A stretch of 64,000 bases of DNA from Daedaleopsis sinensis (taxonomy: Eukaryota; Basidiomycota; Agaricomycetes; Polyporales; Polyporaceae), in assembly GCA_033807695.1 (NCBI GenBank), contig CM066302.1, forward strand, positions 4,092,001 through 4,156,000, written 5' to 3'. Both the position numbers and the translations under genes were made by a program. Shown one piece after another: positions 47,632 through 58,637 of this stretch. Within the stretch, counting starts at the first letter, position 1; each line of letters begins with the position of its first letter. The notes beneath the pieces were generated by a model. That model searched no databases. It had not been told where the DNA came from and was given only the letters and a program-made list of their open reading frames with translations.

Positions 47632-48107
47632 TTATCTAACTGTGTCTGGACGTTCCCGACAGCGACGGTATTCTTCTAAAAAGGCGTCCTCCATTGCCTC
47701 TTTCATGGCTTGTTTTCCCTCCGAGTCACCATTCCAGCATTTTATGGGCGACCATGGTGGCATATAGTACTCCCAGTCTGACTGATGTGGATTGCAACAC
47801 ATCTCGATCAATCTTTTCCTGTAAGGGCCGGCATTAGTTTCTGCTGCCTGAAGCTGGAGAACCCGAAGAACTTGTGCATACTCATGAAGCTCCTTGATAT
47901 CAGTATATGTCCCGCCCACTCCCCCATCGGGTCTGTAGCTTGTATCGATGTATTGTTCCGCAGGCTCAGTCAGTTCTTTGAAAAAGACGGCCCACACCCA
48001 GAAGGGTCCTGACGAGACAACTGCAAAGACAACAGGTTTCTCGAACATGCCCTGGGAAAAGTAATGCTGAACTTGTTTATAGACTTGAATCGTTGCTTCT
48101 CTTATTT
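47632..48107 (-). pseudogene. 3' part of a gene split by the 9.76-kb transposon
   Basis: On the minus strand the frame from 48107 down to the stop at 47632 begins KIREATIQVYKQVQHYFSQG. It then has a hydrophobic core (FAVVSSGPFWVWAVFF) and ends in ERPDTVR. The 5' part lies at 57880-58637. With the element and one 9-bp duplication copy removed, the two parts join in frame as 945 bases of exon 2. The family is unrecognised; the protein is soluble-looking, without a signal peptide. The frame on this side shows no later damage, so the insertion may be recent. Confidence 0.8.
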
Positions 48108-48116
48108 TGATGTCCA
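48108..48116. repeat. Left target-site duplication TGATGTCCA
   Basis: The same nine bases occur at 57880-57888, directly flanking both inverted termini. This is the expected footprint of cut-and-paste transposition. Confidence 0.9.
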
Positions 48117-48158
48117 GGATAACTCTATTTTGAAACCCCGGGTATCGAAATGCAACCC
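48117..48158 (+). repeat. Left terminal inverted repeat of the transposon
   Basis: Begins GGATAACTC and includes the palindromic block CCCCGGG. Its inverse partner is 57838-57879. Agreement is strong over the outer 29 bases and weaker inward to AACCC. Confidence 0.88.
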
Positions 48159-48460
48159 CCCTTCTATTGAGAGCATCCGAACGACTGGAACAAGTGTCCG
48201 GCGGAGTGTCCGGCGGAGGCGGTGACAATAGGTCACAGTAGCGTCACTGGTGACACTTGGCGCCCCACCTGTGACCCCGACGCATCCGCCACTTCTATCC
48301 CGCCATGTCCTTCTGGCGCTGCCGCCACCCGCCGCCCTCCCCGCCACTCGGCCGCTGGCCATTGCTATCTGAGCTGAGCTAGGACCCATCGGGGCTATTG
48401 TACTATGTAATCTATAAGTAATACAACCGTGAAGTTGTTCGAACAACACAGTGCCCCACC
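48159..48460 (+). promoter_or_regulatory. Left subterminal and transposase upstream region
   Basis: About 300 bp between the left terminus and the transposase ATG. It has two copies of GTGTCCGGCGGA near 48193-48217 and a C-rich stretch near 48300-48360. Paired inverted copies (TCCGCCGGA) lie near 56668 and 56682 upstream of the RTC4-like gene. They could be transposase binding sites or shared promoter motifs; nothing here decides which. Confidence 0.4.
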
Positions 48461-50846
48461 ATGAATCTCCTAGCTATGTGCCACTCGCTGCAGGCAGCCC
48501 CTCATCTTGCGGGCAGCCTGAACTATGACGACCTCGTGAAGTTCTGTGACCTCGTCTGCTGGCTGCGCGACGACATTGCAGCTGGACAGCTTCCTGGGAC
48601 TACGACACCTCCCGCATCCCTTCCATCTAAGATTCATTTATTTATCAGAGATATATTCTCGCTATCCGATGAGGATACAACATCACTCTGGGCTCTACTA
48701 CGGAATATTGCTTGGGGTTCATCACCTGCTGAGCCGAGCAAGCTTGAACAGCGCCGTGCACATGCGTTGCTTCCGCTATTTCTCAAGTATGGTGTGCCTC
48801 ACAACCTAGGTATGTCTCTGACTTGCTAGCGAGCATGTTTTTTCTTCAACTAATAAGTACATGCACATTTACTAGCTTTCTACAACCTACGCCCACCGAC
48901 ACGTGTTTGTCTCGATCCTGCATGCAGTCGGAAGCGTGCCCGGATTGGCTCCCATGACGAGTACGAGATGGTACCTTCCATGCTTGCAGAGCCTTTATCC
49001 CACGCTATCGTCATCTTCACCGAGGATCTGGGTCCTATCCCTGCGGAGAGTACATCTCTCTATTGCCGTAGTACGTACCATCAGGATAAGGAGAGTCAGG
49101 CTACTAACTCTACTCTTACAGAATGTAATACCCGCTACTATCACAACTACTTCGTCCACAACCGTGCAACTGCACGGACTTACTATATGCAACCTCCGCC
49201 CTTCCTGGAAATAGCTCAGCACTTCTACATCACGTCATCTATATGTGAGAACTTTACCAATTCCATGATGCTTGCATGGTATGTGTAATAATGTTCAGTC
49301 ACAATCATATACTGACACTTACCACTTTCGCAGGACCTCTGCAACCAATTGTGCCGAGATATATAACCTCGCTGACCGACCACACGACCTCTCCGCACAG
49401 CTCTCAAAGCTATGGAAGCTGAAGCCCGAGCTCACGACCGAGCTTGTCTGGGATGCTTTCTACATTCATGCACTGCTATTAGACCATCAAGAGCGCAAAG
49501 TCCCCCTTAAGCTGGTCCACAATGCTCCTTCGCATTTTGAGCGCCTTCGACCTGCACTTCAAGCACGTAACTTACGTATGGTGGGCCCTGGGCAAGAGGA
49601 ATGGTCGCACGCATGCAAGCTTTGCTGCTGGATCGACAAGGACGAAGAGTCTGAAGAAGAAGGTCAGTTCTCTGAGTCAATATCTATTCTACACACTTCA
49701 TTGCTCACACTGCGTCCAGTCGCAATTCGTTCTGTGGTCACAGATGGAGTTACCGTCGGTCACCCCTGCTGTGCCGTGCATGACTGCAAGCTCCCTCTTG
49801 TCCGTCGAAAGGGTGCCCGATATTGTGTCGAGCATGCTGCTAGAGAGCTCGAATGCTCGGTCATTGGTTGTAGCACCCCTGCAGAAAACAAGTTCAAGTC
49901 TTGCGCAGATCCCGCTCACCGTGCTCTGGATGAACGCTATCATATGCAGAATGCCGCAATGTTCCAACTTAAAGGTCGTTACGAGCGCCTCAACGAATCT
50001 CGCGGGCGTGGATCAGATCACAACTTGGCTCCACACACCGATTCTCTCCTCCCTTCCCCCGCAGCCATTACTGGATCAGACGACCCCATTCTTGAAGACG
50101 ACATGATGGACGATGAGCTCTTGATAGACTCTGAAGCAGTCTCCGAATCCGAGGCCGACTCTACCCCCAAGAACGCATGTGCTTTGGAGAAATCACCACA
50201 TGGCAACCGGAGGCTGAAGACTCAGTTTGGGCGTAGGCGCACTCACAACGAGGAACTATGTGTCGCATCATGCGGCACAGTTCTGGGACGTGCTAGCTTT
50301 CATGGCTCTGAGGCAATCAACGGTGTTGTCGTATGATTTCTACAACTATTGCATGATGACCGGCAGGAATAGCTAATGTCTGTCGTTTAGCAATTCTGGC
50401 GACGACTGTTCCCTTACCGCCGATCTCTACCTCAAGTCTTATGGCACGATCAGAACTGCAGGGTGTGGACAATGATTCACGGCGCTGAATCAGATGACGA
50501 AACACGCGAGTTCTTTTCGTACTGTGCATTGCCTGTGGATGTCTTCCACTTCAAATGCAAGCACAAGGAATCCGACATCGTCTGCGGCACCCATTGCAAC
50601 CCTTACAACTGGCCCGAACTTCGAACTCCGGACAGAAAGTGGCGTTTCAATTCCTCTGCTGCCGAGCAGATCAACGCGTGGTTCTGCAAATTTCATCCCA
50701 TTGTTTGCGAGATGGACGTCGACAGGTACAACTTCTTCCTGGACGAAATGATCAAGCGACGGAACAGGGTCACAGTGAGGAAGCTCGCAAGCAAAGGTCA
50801 GGCTCCATATCGTATTCCACGGGATGCGCTATTGCGAGATGACTAG
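48461..50846 (+). CDS. KDZ-like transposase with CxC5/CxC6 cysteine clusters (698 aa)
   Basis: Six exons: 48461-48809, 48876-49070, 49122-49278, 49334-49662, 49720-50330 and 50391-50846, with introns of 51-66 bp. The N-terminal cluster contains FYNLRPPTRVCLDPACSR (C128, C133) and YCRKCNTRYYHNYFVH (C180, C183), as in the CxC5 module, and is followed by WTSATNCAEIYN. The second cluster (about residues 352-420, HPCCAVHDC, YCVEH, GCSTPAENKFKSC) matches the CxC6 module. Candidate acidic catalytic residues are D352 in VVTDGVTVG, D567 in WHDQNCR (compare the KDZ motif YDxxC) and E639 in AAEQINAW. They are separated by DVFHFKCKHK and CNP. The role would be cutting the terminal repeats in the nucleus and reinserting the element. 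Introns are clean and no stops remain. A Ser/Glu-rich acidic stretch lies before exon 6. Confidence 0.85.
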
Positions 50847-51222
50847 ATGAACAGTTGTGTTTTGTACATTGATTTATGCCGACTATCTACATCGTGCTTG
50901 CAATGCTGCTCAGCCACAATCATAAGTAATGAACCTCTCGTGACACTCAAGCTACGACTCACCATCTTCCTCCAACCGGTCGCTGCCCAGCTCAGCCAAG
51001 ACCACAGTCTCGATGCCCACTGCCTGTCACGTTGCGCACAGGGGTGTCGGAAACAGGCTCGTGAGATTGAGCCCGTCATTGCGCCCAAGGTGGTTGTAGG
51101 ACACGATTGAGAGCGGCTTGATGCCCGTGTTCATGACGAACTCTGCGAACACCAATGTGACCTTCGTCTGGCCAGACTTGAGCCCCACACAACGACACAT
51201 GAGCCTGTGGGCAGCACCCAAA
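50847..51222. other. Gap between transposase and HET relic
   Basis: About 375 bp where the two convergent genes end. A short minus-strand frame (51266 to 51027) does not look like the missing HET C-terminus. Nothing else is seen. Confidence 0.45.
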
Positions 51223-52647
51223 CTAGCAACGGCAAGGCAACAGGCGGTGGACGTAGAAGAAGACACTGTCGTCTGACTTGAGGATCACGTCCGGCGGCGT
51301 GGGGAGCAGCTGCCCCAGGCTGGAAGGTGGTCGAGATGGAGCGTCGGGGGGCTGCGCGCGGATGCACGCGTCAAGTACGAGCACCACGCCAGCTTCCTTG
51401 TACGTCCGACCCATCATCCGGATTGCCTGCTTGCGCAGCGCGCCCGCCGCAGGCACGCAAAGTGCGTCGATCCAGAACGCGCCGCGCCGCAGCTCTGCAT
51501 TTGACTCTGCTTCTGAGTCTGGGTCGGGTGGGGGCACAAAGTGTGCGGTGTGTGCCCCGAGCCGCGAGACCTGGCACATGGGGAGGCCGAGCTCGGACGC
51601 GCTGCCGAGGCCGTCGACCCAAACATGCGAGATGGCGACATACGCGCCGGGTACCGCAGGCTCGACACGTAGCTGTTGTCCGTCGAAGACGACGGCCGGA
51701 ATCGTCCCGGCGGACAGAAGACGAACTACATCGTCTACGGGAGGATTGACAAATGGGCAGTTGCAAGAGGGTTCGACGTGTCGCGGGGAGTAGTTGTGCG
51801 TGTCGGTGATGGTGTAGAGCTTGCAAGCGCGCTCCGTGCAGTCCTGGTGCTCGTCGGGGGCCCGCCGGATGAATGGCGGCTGGCGGAAGAGGGCGGAGTA
51901 GACCGACACCTAGGGAATCGTGTTGAGGAAGTCGTAGGAGATGGTGTGGGGGCACCAGCCAGCGCGATGCATCGCGTGCATGCACGCGAACGGGACGTGC
52001 TCCCAAAACGCGCGCCCGCCAGGCTTGATGGACTCGAGCGCGAGCGTTTTCAACTCCGTCGAGTCGGGCCAGATTGACAGCGCCATCCCGCAGAGGGCCA
52101 TAATTGAGAATGCGATCGCGGAGAGAATGTGTCGGTGGTTGTCCTTTATTCCTGCGCGCGAGAAGATCCCGCCGAAGAAGGTGACCGAGTCCTCGTCCAG
52201 CGCTGCGAATGCGTGCTCTAACAGATGGAAGACCTTGCGCCCACGTTCGAGATGCGCGCGGGAGTTCGGCCAGGGGTATTGGACCATGTACGTGCACCAG
52301 CTACTAAGGAAGCCTGCAAGATGGTGTCCAGATATGAATCGTTTATCAGGATCTGCGGGCGAGGAGAGAAGGAGAGTCTCGGGGATGTGCATGGCTGTAA
52401 CGGTCTCGAGGAGGGTTTTATACGCGGCCTTGAGGAGTACGGGGTCGCGGGTGCGCAACACGGCTATGAGCTCTGCCTGTGTTCGTTGCTGGAGCTCCGT
52501 CGTCCACGGGACATGCTGGTGGCCCTCCCAGCATGGGCCTTGAGCTGGGTCTGGGGGGTGTTCGCCCGGTGATAGAAGGCATTGACGATGCAGGCCATGC
52601 TCCCATCTTACTGCATGCCCATCCCTCGCCCTCATCTCTGTCTCCAT
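51223..52647 (-). pseudogene. HET-domain protein, truncated and with an in-frame stop
   Basis: Read from the ATG at 52647. An N-terminal helical region contains GHHLAGFLSSWCTYMVQYPW and the typical lead-in AGWCPHTISYDFL, then a TAG (51910-51912) interrupts the frame. The same frame continues open with a Cys pair (DCTERAC). HET-domain blocks follow: GAYVAISHVWVDGLGS, then FWIDALCVPAAGALRKQAI and RMMGRTYKEAGVVLVLD. It stops at 51223 just after the HET core, without the following WTLQE-type segment of full-length basidiomycete HET proteins. No intron that would skip the TAG is evident. In ascomycetes, HET proteins trigger cell death on non-self fusion; in basidiomycetes their role is poorly known. 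It is cargo within the transposon. Confidence 0.82.
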
Positions 52648-53008
52648 CGTTCCCCAAAAGAGCGACTCACTTAGAAGAAAACGCTATCAGCGTGGTCATT
52701 AGGCTCCGTCTGTCCCTAGCCCGGTCCCCAAGGTCGAGGTCACACGGCAGGAGACGACAGGGTCTAGAGTTTGAGGCAGCGTGTACTCAGTACTGACGGA
52801 GGTCGAGAGAGGACAGCAGGTGGTGGAGGAGAGAATGTGAGAGCCCTAAGTCCCTTTGGGCGTCTAGATCTCCCAATATGATCGCAAACCCCTACGAGTC
52901 GGAGGAAGTCTTTACGATCATAACAACATGGCATATATAGTTGTGATTATGACTAGCATTACAGTGGTACTAGGTGTAGTATACAGTTCAACCGGTACAA
53001 CAGTGTAC
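52648..53008. other. Intergenic stretch between HET relic and RTC4-like gene
   Basis: About 360 bp upstream of the HET relic and downstream of the RTC4-like gene. An AT-rich block with ATATAGTTGTG lies near 52930. No gene seen. Confidence 0.45.
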
Positions 53009-56000
53009 TTATTCATCATCATCATCAGTGTCGATCACATACACCTCTCGTACTGTCCCTCGCAGTGCATCTATGGGCTCTTGAACTACGCGGAAGCCAC
53101 ATACAGTATCGTTACTCGAAATAGCGGGGATACTACCTTCTTCCTCCTCCCTCTTGATAACAGGCTCGCCATCAGCATTAGAGAGGGATTGGATGGCCCT
53201 ACTGGTCGTCTCCGCTACGGACAAGTTGGCGGGACTCGTGGTGCCTGGCAGAACACGAGGGTGAGGGCGAGGGCGAGGAGTATTAGACTGCTGTGGTGTG
53301 TCCAGAATAGCACAGTGTGGGCACGGAGCGATTGTCGTAAGGCCGGATATGAGGTCTGACTCAGTCGCTGTGACCGTGTTCAAGCAGGCATTGATGTCGT
53401 CGTCTTCACTGAGAGGAAAAGTTATGCGGCCATAGTCTCGACTTGTGCGCAGAGCCTCAACAGCCTGGTCACGCGAACAAGTGGGGTTGTCGTCGAGGAT
53501 GAGGGCGACAGCGAGCTCGGGTACGAGCACCTGCCGGATGAGGGTACCAGCATCGAGACCGTGGACCAATGCGGTGTTGTTACCCAGAGTCTTCTGGCAA
53601 GTCTTGAGTACGAACATCAGGAGCAGAGCATAGCCCTTTTCCCCATAGCTGAAGACCATGCACGTCAATGGAAGCGCAACATGTTATGAGCGTGAGCGTA
53701 CTCACAATCCTGCCGATATTCTGTTCATCTCTGCCATGCGGTGATGAACATGAGCGTTAGGCTTGAATGTTCTTCGCGCTTCTAAAAAGAAGCCGTTGTT
53801 GTGCGGATCTTGAATCAACGCAGCGAGGTGTGGGAGGAAGCGAGGGAGGCGTGCCCCTAGGGCATCGAAGTCGAGATGAATGGGATAAGTGATTCCCTCT
53901 TGACTACTGCGGGAAGCTTGGTTGGCGATCGCAGATTCTCGTCGATGAGCAGGACAGAAGCCGTTCTCGAAGAGGTTGAAGGATGTGAAACTGAGGTCGT
54001 ATTCGCGGTGCCCAGGATTGGCCGCATTCGGTTCACTCCACGAGTGTTTGAGTAGATCTGCCTGACGTGCCAGAAGTGCAGCAGATGGTGCTGGAGGCAT
54101 TGGGTCGTCGCAGAAGGGACAGAGTGTGGCGCCCAAAGCCGTGCCGTTAGGATGATCTGTGTTGTCTCCGAGTCCAGCCTCTGGTTCGTTGGCGTCCGGA
54201 TCATCTTCCATCTCCTGCTGTTCCTCAGCAGTCAAGAACAGCAAGGGCGCTGGTGAGAGTCGGACGATAGGGCTCGGAAAGGGGTCATTGTACTCAAGGT
54301 CGTCATGCGTGGCTGGAAGGGATGACGAAGTAGGAGTGCTGCTGCGGATACTAGCATCACCAGGCGAAGTCGAAGAATATTGAGTATCCTCGGACTTCAC
54401 CGACGCGCTTGTGCTTGAACGAGCAATGGCATCTAAGAACAGCGCCCAGCTACCTTGAGTGTCATCTCCGTAAGCCACAAATGTGTCACGAAGCGCGACT
54501 GGAGCCCTGTCCAAGTGCCGCACATGGTCATAGAAGGTGCTGCTAGCGAGACGTTCCCCGAAGACCATGGGGAATATGTCCCTCTTCTTCATCTGCTTGG
54601 GCGGCTTGGAAGCGATGAGGTCGTTCATTCTGTTGATGCCGTCTTGGACCTGTGCGACGGTGAATGTATACGGCCAAGTTTTCTGCCCCGCCTTCGTGCG
54701 CGTACCGGTACCGACAATTTGATGTGATGAGGCGTCTGGTCGAGCGATTGTGGTGTCTGGCAGAGGAGGATCCAGATCCAGTGCCGGACGGCGCTGCTGA
54801 GGCTGAGGCTGAGCCTCCGCACCCATGGGCACCACGGTCGAACGAGGTTCAAGCAGCTAGAAGATGTATGTTAGATAGAACACGTGGACAGGATGTATAT
54901 AAATGCTTACCAGCGGTTCACGTTGAGCATTGCCCCGCATGAAGGTGACATCCACTCCGGGGGTGGCACGGTGGACTTTGGAGGGAGGGGCAGCAAGGTG
55001 ATCTGCACGGCGCTTGCCATCGAATGCGAGCGCGAGCTCTGAGTCCAGGTCAGGACACAAGTCGTCGGACCAGCGCACTCCATCTGTGTCGAGACGGATA
55101 ACCACACGAGGCAGTGTGTCACCGATGCGTCGGGCGACCGTGACAGATATAGCGGTCTTGGCGGGTTGAAGATACCAGTAGCGCTGTCTAGCGACGTTTG
55201 ACATGTCGAGAACCTCAAGAAGGGTGTCCGGTGTGAGCCCGAGCTTCTTGACTAGGATGGGGACACTTAAAGGCTCGATGTTGGGGAAGTGGGGAAACGA
55301 ATCCACAAGACGCAGAGGCAGCTCGTTTGGCTACGATACAAAATATATATAAGATATTGTACACTGTATAAGAGCGAGAGACTTACCCTATAGTAGGCAA
55401 TGACCATGGCCTTTCCCTCCGCCTCCTTCATGAGCTCTTCCCGCTTCGTCTTGAGACTCTTGGTGTGGACTTCTTGATGTTCCGCATCACGATGCGCACC
55501 CTGCCACGCAGAGTTGATTGGCATGGCAAGGCGTGCCCGCGGAGCTGTGACCCGACCGTTCGGACGGGCGACAGCAGGACCAGAGGGCTGAGATAGCGGA
55601 GCCGATGCCTGATGCTGGGTTCGGGAAGGCGGTACGGGAGGAAGCGGCTGCGATTGAGCGACAGGAGGAGGAGGTGGAGCATTCTGGAGGAGGCTCTGTA
55701 GAGACTGAGTGGCGACTAAATTGATAGCAAGAGCGTCGGGAGGTAGCACAGGGAGAGCAGCGGGCGGCTGGGTGGAGACGTACGGCCCAGCGGGGGAGAG
55801 CTGTGTACTCTCACCCTCGTAGCCTGGAGTGTCATGCACCTTGCAAGCGAATGTAATGGCGTGGGTGAGGGCAGCAAGATGAGCTAGTGCCTTGCAGCAC
55901 TGTTTGCAGCGAAGGTGGGGGCATTGGCGGTTTCCCTTGCGGGCACCATCTTGTGTCGACTTTGTGCACGAAGCATTGCTACACACTATGTCCTTCTGCG

Positions 56001-56383
56001 TGTGGGGAGGGAGGACGGGAGGACGAGGTGCAAGGTGCAGTTCGGCACCTTCGGGCGTAAATTGTTGAAGGTGAGCGTACGGATCGGTGAGACGGGCAAC
56101 GAGCCGCCAAAGAAACCGGATTGCGTCGTTGTATGCAAATGCAGCGGTGAGAACTTCGGTATAATGGCATTGAGGATCGGTACACTAGAAACTCATGAAT
56201 AGATGATACAATATGAGTAAGATGGAGACGTACTCGAAGACAAATACACCCTCTCCTCGCAATCCCATCAAACCCTGTTCCTTCGTGTACCCTCCACTGG
56301 ATTGCCTTGCTACACTTCTTGCATCGGGTGGAATACTTGTCGATCTTCGGGTCAGGAACTACGGCAGTGGCGTCAGGAGGCAT
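53009..56383 (-). CDS. Large cysteine-cluster protein with RTC4-like domain (1,052 aa), transposon cargo
   Basis: Five exons on the minus strand: 56383-56234, 56184-55387, 55330-54911, 54856-53706 and 53648-53009, with introns of 49-57 bp, giving an uninterrupted 1,052-codon frame. The N-terminus has a zinc-type cluster, C21xxC24, C46xC48, C51 and C55, spanning the exon 1/2 join. A second cluster (C118, C123, C138, C143, C146, C147, C164, H167) follows. Then come a Pro/Gln-rich linker, a basic stretch (TKREELMKEA) and a central region with KTWPYTFTVAQVQDGINRMN. The C-terminal third resembles the RTC4-like domain. It has CPFC at about 702, CPAH at about 757, then GEKGYALL, VLVPELAVALI and EALRTSRDYG. 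An acidic tail ends in DTDDDDE. Yeast Rtc4 is named for an effect on telomere capping; the role of basidiomycete homologues is unknown. A DNA-binding helper of the transposon or captured host cargo are both possible. Confidence 0.8.
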
Positions 56384-57837
56384 GTAGACGAGGAGGATGC
56401 GGTAAACGGGGACGTACTCTGAGGCTCCGGATGGTTAAGTAGTTATACTCGACGCTTTGTGGGACGCTTTGAACAACAGCGAGGAGCGAGGCCACACTGC
56501 AGCTTTGATCTTGATATGTTTTGAGAGTGGCGGGGTGGGCGGGGTGGCGCATGCGCACAGGGCAGGCGGCGGGGGAGGTAGTCGGCAGGAGGTGACAGTG
56601 TGTGGCGGGAGAGTGACGATGTAGACGCCCACGGCTCATAGTCCGTACGGGCGCCTCAAGGACAATGTCCGCCGGAATTTCTCCGCCGGACAGGTGCCCC
56701 AGTAATTCTGACTTTCTGCTTCTATTTGAGAGCCGGATTTCCACCCGGCCGACTGGCCGGCTGCGGCGCTCTCGCCCGGTACTCAGGCGTCTAAGCTACC
56801 AAAAAGAGACAACACGTTAGCGTCTGCCACGGCCGCCGCGCAATTCTTTCATGCCAATATCAATGCTATAGACATACATATATGGGACGGTGGTCCTCAC
56901 TATATAGCCTCATAGTCAAGGACTATGATACCTATACTCCCTACTAGTTCATGAGTATTGTACTACTCGACTGCCACCAGTGGCCCGGCGCCGGTGTCCA
57001 GGCCCCGGCGCCCACCTTACCGGCGCTGCCACTGATGGCATGATCTCAGAATCAGACTTGTGCGAGAAGCCTTTTCGAGTTGAATGTGCTCGATATAGAC
57101 CACCTAAGGCTGAGACTAGCAAATGAACTGTATAGTACTATCACTCTGCGTGGCCAACTTAGGCTTCAGCCGATTCCGTAAAATGAAGCTCACTGGACTT
57201 GAAGTACTAGTCACGTACTGTGTCGGTGCGTACAAAGCTCAAGCTATATCAACTAGCACGTTAAAAGCTGTTATTTCACAAATCTTGGTTCACAGTATCC
57301 TCATGACATACCACCTCCCCGAGAGAGTCGAGTAGTACTTATCTCTGAGTCGGACTCCGATGTGCCCGAATGGGCAAAATCTAGTATACATAGTACTAAG
57401 TAATATCAGATCATATGGACTCTGTTACCAAACTTCCCGAGGCTGAACAGCCTTTTACGAGTCCAGATGTAGAACTTTGTTACTGTGCTACCTAAACCTT
57501 CCGAACAAAAATATGAAAGGGAGGTTGGCTATTCAATTGGCATAGCATTGCAGCGACTAGTATGTAAAGCTGGAAGTACCATTTTGTTGCGTACCCAGAA
57601 CTCAACACTCAATTTTGACACTGTCCTGAGTGCTATAGATGGTATAAACGATTATTCAGGCGTATTTTGGGGCGTCGAGGGCGTTGTCGGGAGGGGAGGA
57701 GGATCGGAGCTCGAGCCTGAGGAGAACAAATGCTCAAGCGCGGCGCCTCTTGGGCGCTCGTGCCCCGGGTGACGCCCGCTGACCGGCCGGGCGGAGGAAC
57801 CCTTTATATCAAGATAAGTCTTATTTTGCTTGCAACC
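56384..57837. other. Right arm of the transposon, no supported gene
   Basis: About 1.45 kb between the RTC4-like start and the right terminus. It contains paired TCCGCCGGA motifs (56668, 56682), a GC-rich inverted stretch near 56985-57040 (CCGGCGCCGG), then AT-richer DNA with short frames only (57123-57335, 57485-57772). It probably holds the promoter of the RTC4-like gene and subterminal sequences. Confidence 0.5.
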
Positions 57838-57879
57838 CGGGTTACTTCACATACCCCGGGTTTCGAAATAGAATTATCC
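57838..57879 (-). repeat. Right terminal inverted repeat of the transposon
   Basis: On the minus strand it begins GGATAATTC and includes CCCGGGG. It pairs with 48117-48158 with three mismatches in the outer 29 positions. Confidence 0.88.
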
Positions 57880-57888
57880 TGATGTCCA
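57880..57888. repeat. Right target-site duplication TGATGTCCA
   Basis: Perfect copy of 48108-48116, directly outside the right terminus. Confidence 0.9.
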
Positions 57889-58637
57889 CGCTTTTATCAA
57901 AACTTTCTCCTTCATCCGGACCAGGAAGCTTTTTAACCTCTGAGATCACAAATGTGCAAGCGAGGGCGGTGTCAAGGGGGTACGGCGAGTATTGGTTCTG
58001 TTGTTCAAGACTCCACATGTTCCACGTCCGAATGGCAGATGGCTCTAGCATTACGCCTGGTTGGAGCTTGAGGGGAAGAAATGAGATGGTTCCGTCGATA
58101 ATCACCCATCGCTTTCTCATGTTGCCGTTTTGGTCTTCTTGTAGAATGCTCACCCGGGTCTCAGGGGGGAACACTACTAGATACTTTGAGATATCTTTGA
58201 GGAGTTCGTCGTAAATGACTTGCGGCCACATCGCATACCAGCGATGCTCAAGGGTGGCGTCCTCGTGTGCCCCAAGCGCGTTCAATAACGCTTGTACTCG
58301 GTAAACCGTGAGTGATCGTGTGGAGGACCCGGAGTTGGACATGGCAGCCTGATTTGTACTGAGTATACCATTGAATATATATGTATATATGTAAGTGGTA
58401 GTAATGATGATCATAAATGGGACTCGGACCTACCAGAGCGTGGCACTTGCAAGGATTATCTTCTATTGTAAAGCAGGATGGGGCGCTTAAACCCAAATTA
58501 GAAAGTTTTGCGTATATGGCAGTCGAGGACAACCATGTCGCTCCTGCACGTCTTCTGTATTTCTGATTCGCATCGGAGTAGTATAGATACAACGCTGAAT
58601 ACCTCAAGATGTGTGCTATGTCAAAAATGGGAGCCAT
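57880..58637 (-). pseudogene. 5' part of the gene split by the transposon
   Basis: Exon 1 is 58637-58434 and, after an 85-bp intron (GTAGGT...ATCAG), exon 2 runs from 58348 to the insertion point. The downstream ATG (58342) could serve as an alternative start. The encoded part includes RSLTVYRVQALLNALGAHED, WAMWP-like YAMWPQVIYDELL, and VISEVKKLPGPDEGESF. Exon 2 joined to 48107-47632 gives an unbroken 945-base exon. With exon 1 the protein would have been about 382 aa. I do not recognise it. In the present allele the frame runs only a few codons into the element, ending in RNPGYVK. Confidence 0.78.

Follow-up and report, generated by a model that had tools for sequence, protein, structure and literature searches.

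The 64,000-bp stretch of Daedaleopsis sinensis DNA analysed here (assembly GCA_033807695.1, contig CM066302.1, forward-strand positions 4,092,001 to 4,156,000; referred to as the window) very probably carries two stacked transposons: an 8,550-bp element encoding a CxC5/CxC6 protein, inserted into a gene-less 1.2-kb element, which itself lies in a host reading frame. For each of the two elements, paired target-site duplications and inverted ends were observed, as were an empty site of the inner element in five other copies and a stop-free CxC5/CxC6 gene (Table 1). The original prediction had described one complete 9.76-kb transposon of KDZ type (Kyakuja, Dileera, Zisupton). This was contradicted, as the block with the transposase gene has an 8-bp duplication and inverted ends of its own and is missing from five of five other copies.

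The assembly (51.6 Mb, 24 contigs) was scanned for copies of the outer unit. In five of them (L034, L035, L036, L037 and L038), the match to the window covered the first 58 bp and resumed at position 56719, with the 8.5 kb of genes absent. From 56719 the match extended to the right end in four copies, with an insert in L038; the end of L037 is missing. At the joint, all five aligned short copies read CTTCTATTTGAGAGCC, the undisturbed site, where the window has CTTCTATT, then 8,550 bp starting with GAGAGCATCCGAACGACTGG, then CTTCTATTTGAGAGCC. The terminal inverted repeats of the inner element matched at 27 of 38 positions in an ungapped alignment. An alternative inner duplication of 14/15 bp, one T having been lost, was dropped in favour of the 8-bp duplication, with which no indel has to be assumed and the inner ends align up to their very last base. 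The inner left end has two tandem copies of TGTCCGGCGGAG (48195-48218), and one more copy occurs in the right arm; these repeats are possible transposase binding sites.

With the inner block removed, the outer unit of the window had a sequence identity (gaps excluded) of 98.2% with L034, of 95.0-95.2% with L035 and L038, and of 77-81% with L036 and L037. In an unrooted tree of these six units, the window and L034 were joined, with 0.97 support for their split from the rest. Insertion is favoured over deletion because the outer unit of the window thereby groups with a short copy. The opposite case, a single autonomous 9.76-kb element whose 1.2-kb copies are derivatives that lost the sequence between two direct repeats (14/15 bp, located at 48161 and 56719), draws on a near-repeat that is indeed present, and internal deletion is a frequent origin of non-autonomous elements. 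The same deletion would have been needed at least two times, and a root on L036/L037 would raise this to three; the perfect 8-bp duplication and the inverted ends located exactly at the repeats would be left unexplained. Moreover, the outer duplications are mostly 9 bp, versus 4-8 bp in the excerpted published accounts of KDZ elements. We rejected the one-element explanation in view of what the short copies and the tree show, and consider it very improbable.

Several points weigh against the nested arrangement. The near-repeat (CTTCTATTGAGAGC / CTTCTATTTGAGAGC) extends across the inner junctions, and a short-repeat deletion could also yield the short form. If the duplication is taken to be 8 bp, the agreement of a further 6 bp (GAGAGC) has to be fortuitous, and the outermost inner bases mismatch (G/C). 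An 8-bp duplication for the CxC5/CxC6 type is supported by a single other locus, on contig C7 (see below). Taken by itself, Foldseek gave no match below E 0.036. The assembly has no second copy of the inner ends with which to compare them. This last observation would also agree with an inner block joined in by recombination or repair without transposition, a process that has to contend with the perfect 8-bp duplication, with the inverted ends and with an enclosed gene for a predicted transposase that reads without a stop, and that we hold to be less probable still, close to negligible.

The nested arrangement would have arisen in two steps. The gene-less 1.2-kb element would have entered the host frame with a 9-bp target duplication, probably moved in trans by a transposase encoded elsewhere. 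Later, the 8,550-bp element would have entered the outer unit and generated its own 8-bp duplication, presumably in a cut-and-paste movement by its own CxC5/CxC6 protein. The RTC4-like protein encoded in the inner element may have served as an element-encoded helper, and the HET frame as a passenger.

The outer insertion agreed in most respects with the original prediction. The perfect 9-bp duplication was confirmed as TGATGTCCA, which has two sites only in the window (both strands checked), and the segment enclosed measures 9,763 bp (48117-57879). A recount of its inverted ends likewise gave 26 matches in the 29 outermost positions, and 31 of 42 over the full length; for one given pair of positions, the chance of at least 26 of 29 terminal matches is 8e-13. 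Joining the flanks after removal of 48117-57879 and one duplication copy restored a single minus-strand frame of 341 codons from stop to stop. The predicted open exon of 945 bases fits a count that starts at an AG resembling a splice acceptor, six bases further upstream (CAG|GCTGCCATG); from ATG to stop the frame has 939 bases. Among 1000 dinucleotide-shuffled versions of the joined flanks, none had a frame of such length through the junction (longest 206 codons). The outer insertion is a genuine insertion in the open frame of a predicted gene. A search of 620 candidates for homologues of the host frame gave none at E 0.001 or better, so that this frame is an orphan in that database. Termini, duplication and restored frame had together been taken to define the boundaries of the element; they do so for the outer family of about 1.2 kb, but not for the transposase-bearing block, whose ends are different.

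Within the inner element, the GT..AG introns of the CxC5/CxC6 gene were picked by hand, and the spliced product has 698 aa without a stop. Pieces of this gene matched the Pfam cysteine clusters CxC5 (E 7e-26) and CxC6 (E 5.5e-24). A DDE-type RNase H-like fold with D, D and E was indicated by the predicted fold of a relative and by D-D-E columns; all Foldseek rows had E > 0.001, and rows other than transposases or integrases were set aside as noise. The predicted intact KDZ-like transposase stands as a 698-aa protein without a stop and with CxC5/CxC6 matches, but not as a carrier of the Pfam KDZ domain: PF18758 matched neither the four pieces searched of the window gene nor any of the eight relatives scanned. 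The same search gave 175 matches in the assembly, and the window gene was not among the matches listed. In hhalign against the KDZ catalytic core a probability of 1% was obtained, with the KDZ side made up of four partial sequences only.

The HET frame is likely a cargo or passenger of the element, possibly one concerned with non-self recognition; a literature search for HET cargo in DNA transposons turned up work on ascomycete Starships. For the accessory protein with the RTC4-like domain, the sole homologue among 7,986 candidates was P0056 of Daedaleopsis nitida (65% identity over 64% of the query), whose own RTC4 match is under the cut-off. P0056 and the best transposase match are each located on a 3,037,819-bp contig, presumably one and the same. 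Elsewhere in the assembly, a 384-aa piece of the accessory gene matched only itself, apart from one 25% match (E 2e-5).

Table 1. Features of the stacked insertions and the interrupted host frame (window positions).
Feature	Position	Strand	Remarks
Outer 9-bp target-site duplication, left copy TGATGTCCA	48108..48116	none	
Outer 9-bp target-site duplication, right copy TGATGTCCA	57880..57888	none	
Outer element, left terminal inverted repeat	48117..48145	+	26/29
Outer element, right terminal inverted repeat	57851..57879	-	
Outer non-autonomous unit, left piece	48117..48168	+	One inner duplication copy included; matches five other copies
Outer non-autonomous unit, right piece	56719..57879	+	1,161 bp
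Interrupted host frame, 5' part	57889..58342	-	
Interrupted host frame, 3' part	47632..48116	-	One outer duplication copy included
Inner element, CxC5/CxC6 DNA transposon	48169..56718	none	8,550 bp
Inner 8-bp target-site duplication, left CTTCTATT	48161..48168	none	Single uninterrupted site in short copies
Inner 8-bp target-site duplication, right CTTCTATT	56719..56726	none	
Inner terminal inverted repeat, left arm	48169..48206	+	27/38
Inner terminal inverted repeat, right arm	56681..56718	-	
CxC5/CxC6 predicted DDE transposase	48461..50846	+	Six exons, 698 aa; splice model, Pfam, relatives
HET-domain frame	51226..52683	-	One in-frame TAG at 51910-51912; 25.4 bits vs cut-off 22.5
Accessory gene, RTC4-like domain C-terminal	53009..56383	-	Five exons, 1,052 aa; 33.3 bits vs cut-off 23.7

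At least 19 CxC5/CxC6 loci are contained in the assembly, and one abutting pair was examined at both outer edges. On contig C7 (L061:2120 to L071:383), two 6.5-kb CxC5/CxC6 elements abut head to tail, with ...GGCGGCAGG before and GCGGCAGGGG after the pair, which corresponds to one 8-bp repeat GCGGCAGG; clear inverted ends were not found at this pair. Of the 7-8-bp duplications regarded as typical of KDZ elements, the 8-bp form was thus found both at the inner element (CTTCTATT) and at C7 (GCGGCAGG). By analogy with published elements this is the size to be expected. Zisupton and a Dileera lineage are described with 8-bp duplications and Kyakuja with 7 bp and no inverted ends (PMC12730594, in excerpt). 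Cryptococcus KDZ1 duplicates 8 bp, and KDZ2 and KDZ3 duplicate 4-8 bp, with inverted ends of 139-241 bp and CxC1 (PMC12810828, in excerpt). The inner element resembles fungal KDZ elements in its 8-bp duplication, imperfect inverted ends, cysteine clusters and predicted DDE-type protein. It differs from them in the lack of a Pfam KDZ match, in carrying CxC5/CxC6 rather than CxC1 or CxC2, in its short imperfect ends, and in its RTC4-like partner and HET frame.

In sporeless Pleurotus ostreatus, MSH4 is split by a 6,792-bp fragment coding for a 739-aa CxC5/CxC6 protein; in the excerpt available, its discoverers associated it with Copia retrotransposons, reported no KDZ transposon nearby, and counted 44 and nearly 60 CxC5/CxC6 regions in two Pleurotus genomes (PMC7641404). 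Our inner element is like this insert in encoding a CxC5/CxC6 protein within a split gene. Unlike in the published account, as excerpted, its inverted ends, 8-bp duplication and predicted DDE fold speak for a DNA transposon, with the CxC5/CxC6 protein itself as the agent of movement. In the literature searched, CxC5 appeared together with KDZ in one paper, that on the MSH4 insert, a statement limited to that search. Iyer 2014, reportedly cited by the Pleurotus authors for CxC5/CxC6 and KDZ, may already class CxC5/CxC6 proteins among the KDZ transposases.

As anticipated in the original prediction, a genome search with the outer termini yielded further copies. The 22-bp terminus GGATAAnTCTATTTnGAAACCC occurred 19 times, in each case exactly with two mismatches allowed, and not once when read backwards. 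Sixteen of the 19 termini pair up as eight two-ended elements; three are single. The 9-bp duplications predicted at other copies were exact in five of the eight, including the window (together with L036, L039, L040 and L041), and differed in the others: 9 bp with one mismatch at L038, 10 bp at L034 and 8 bp at L035. The outer ends therefore do not show the 7-8-bp duplication of KDZ elements, and 9 bp lies outside the KDZ range given in the excerpted accounts. Members without inserts are about 1.2 kb long and gene-less, and the longest stop-to-stop frame of the rejoined window unit has 99 codons. The outer units form two subfamilies with common ends (93% over the first 27 bp), whose interiors did not align at the sensitivity used.

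No coding or transposase partner of the outer ends was found with the 22-bp pattern, which gave no end with one or two mismatches; the 14-bp terminus core added one end, on contig C23. Mutator-like transposases make 8-10-bp duplications, and such duplications are carried by non-autonomous inverted-repeat elements resembling miniature inverted-repeat transposable elements (MITEs). The outer units are like such MITE-like elements in their 1.2-kb size, lack of a long frame, near-identical ends and mostly 9-bp duplications. Four Mutator-like element (MULE) loci were found in the assembly. One of them, on contig C10 (L084:151-4532), adjoins outer unit L039 and has a Mutator-like gene inside 183-bp perfect inverted repeats. 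The match lies 2.75 kb from the outer unit, and the inverted repeats of the MULE differ from the GGATAA ends. It is the only MULE locus with GGATAA ends nearby, those of the separate outer unit; the 14-bp search gave no GGATAA end within 100 kb of the remaining three.

Nested insertions were present in four of the eight two-ended outer units (window, L038, L040 and L041). At L040 and L041, 1.17-kb units of the second subfamily carry inserts of 6.15 kb (L040:861-7011) and 6.14 kb (L041:1369-7507) at two different places. The inserts lie between 9-bp repeats, AGCAGTAGC and CCATGCAAG, have perfect inverted ends of 6 bp and at least 60 bp, respectively, and each code for DUF6589 and for a helicase protein (Pfam DEAD and Helicase_C), which we take to be RecQ-like. 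DUF6589, with at least 16 loci in the assembly, may be the transposase of an undescribed group of DNA transposons; it was not found in the literature searched, which holds for those searches only. The eight outer units make up 0.019% of the assembly, and at least two of 16 DUF6589 loci would be located there by chance with P 4e-6, or 4e-4 if only one tenth of the genome were open to insertion. This test was chosen post hoc, uses locus counts that are lower bounds and ignores the tolerance of transposon-rich regions to insertion. The third insert (L038:956-2049, on contig C5) is 1.09 kb long and has Plavaka-like termini (CATCAGG...CCTGATG); those of PlavakaB are CATCA..TGATG (PMC12730594, in excerpt).

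These results carry a warning, since termini, duplication and restored frame may all be correct and yet belong to another element than the enclosed gene. It is conceivable, at somewhat below even chance, that CxC5/CxC6 proteins are the transposases of a separate DNA-transposon lineage of mushrooms (with 8-bp duplications, and here accompanied by a helper of RTC4-like type and by HET as passenger) and that, in addition, several autonomous transposons of unrelated kinds insert preferentially into the small gene-less family with 9-bp duplications. Under their Pfam naming, CxC5 and CxC6 are only cysteine clusters accompanying KDZ transposases. For the sporeless oyster mushroom, a commercial one, the excerpted account ascribed the CxC5/CxC6 insert in MSH4 to a retrotransposon (PMC7641404). 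With an element at hand that has both ends, a duplication, an empty site and a stop-free predicted DDE gene, the question of what moves CxC5/CxC6 fragments is now testable.
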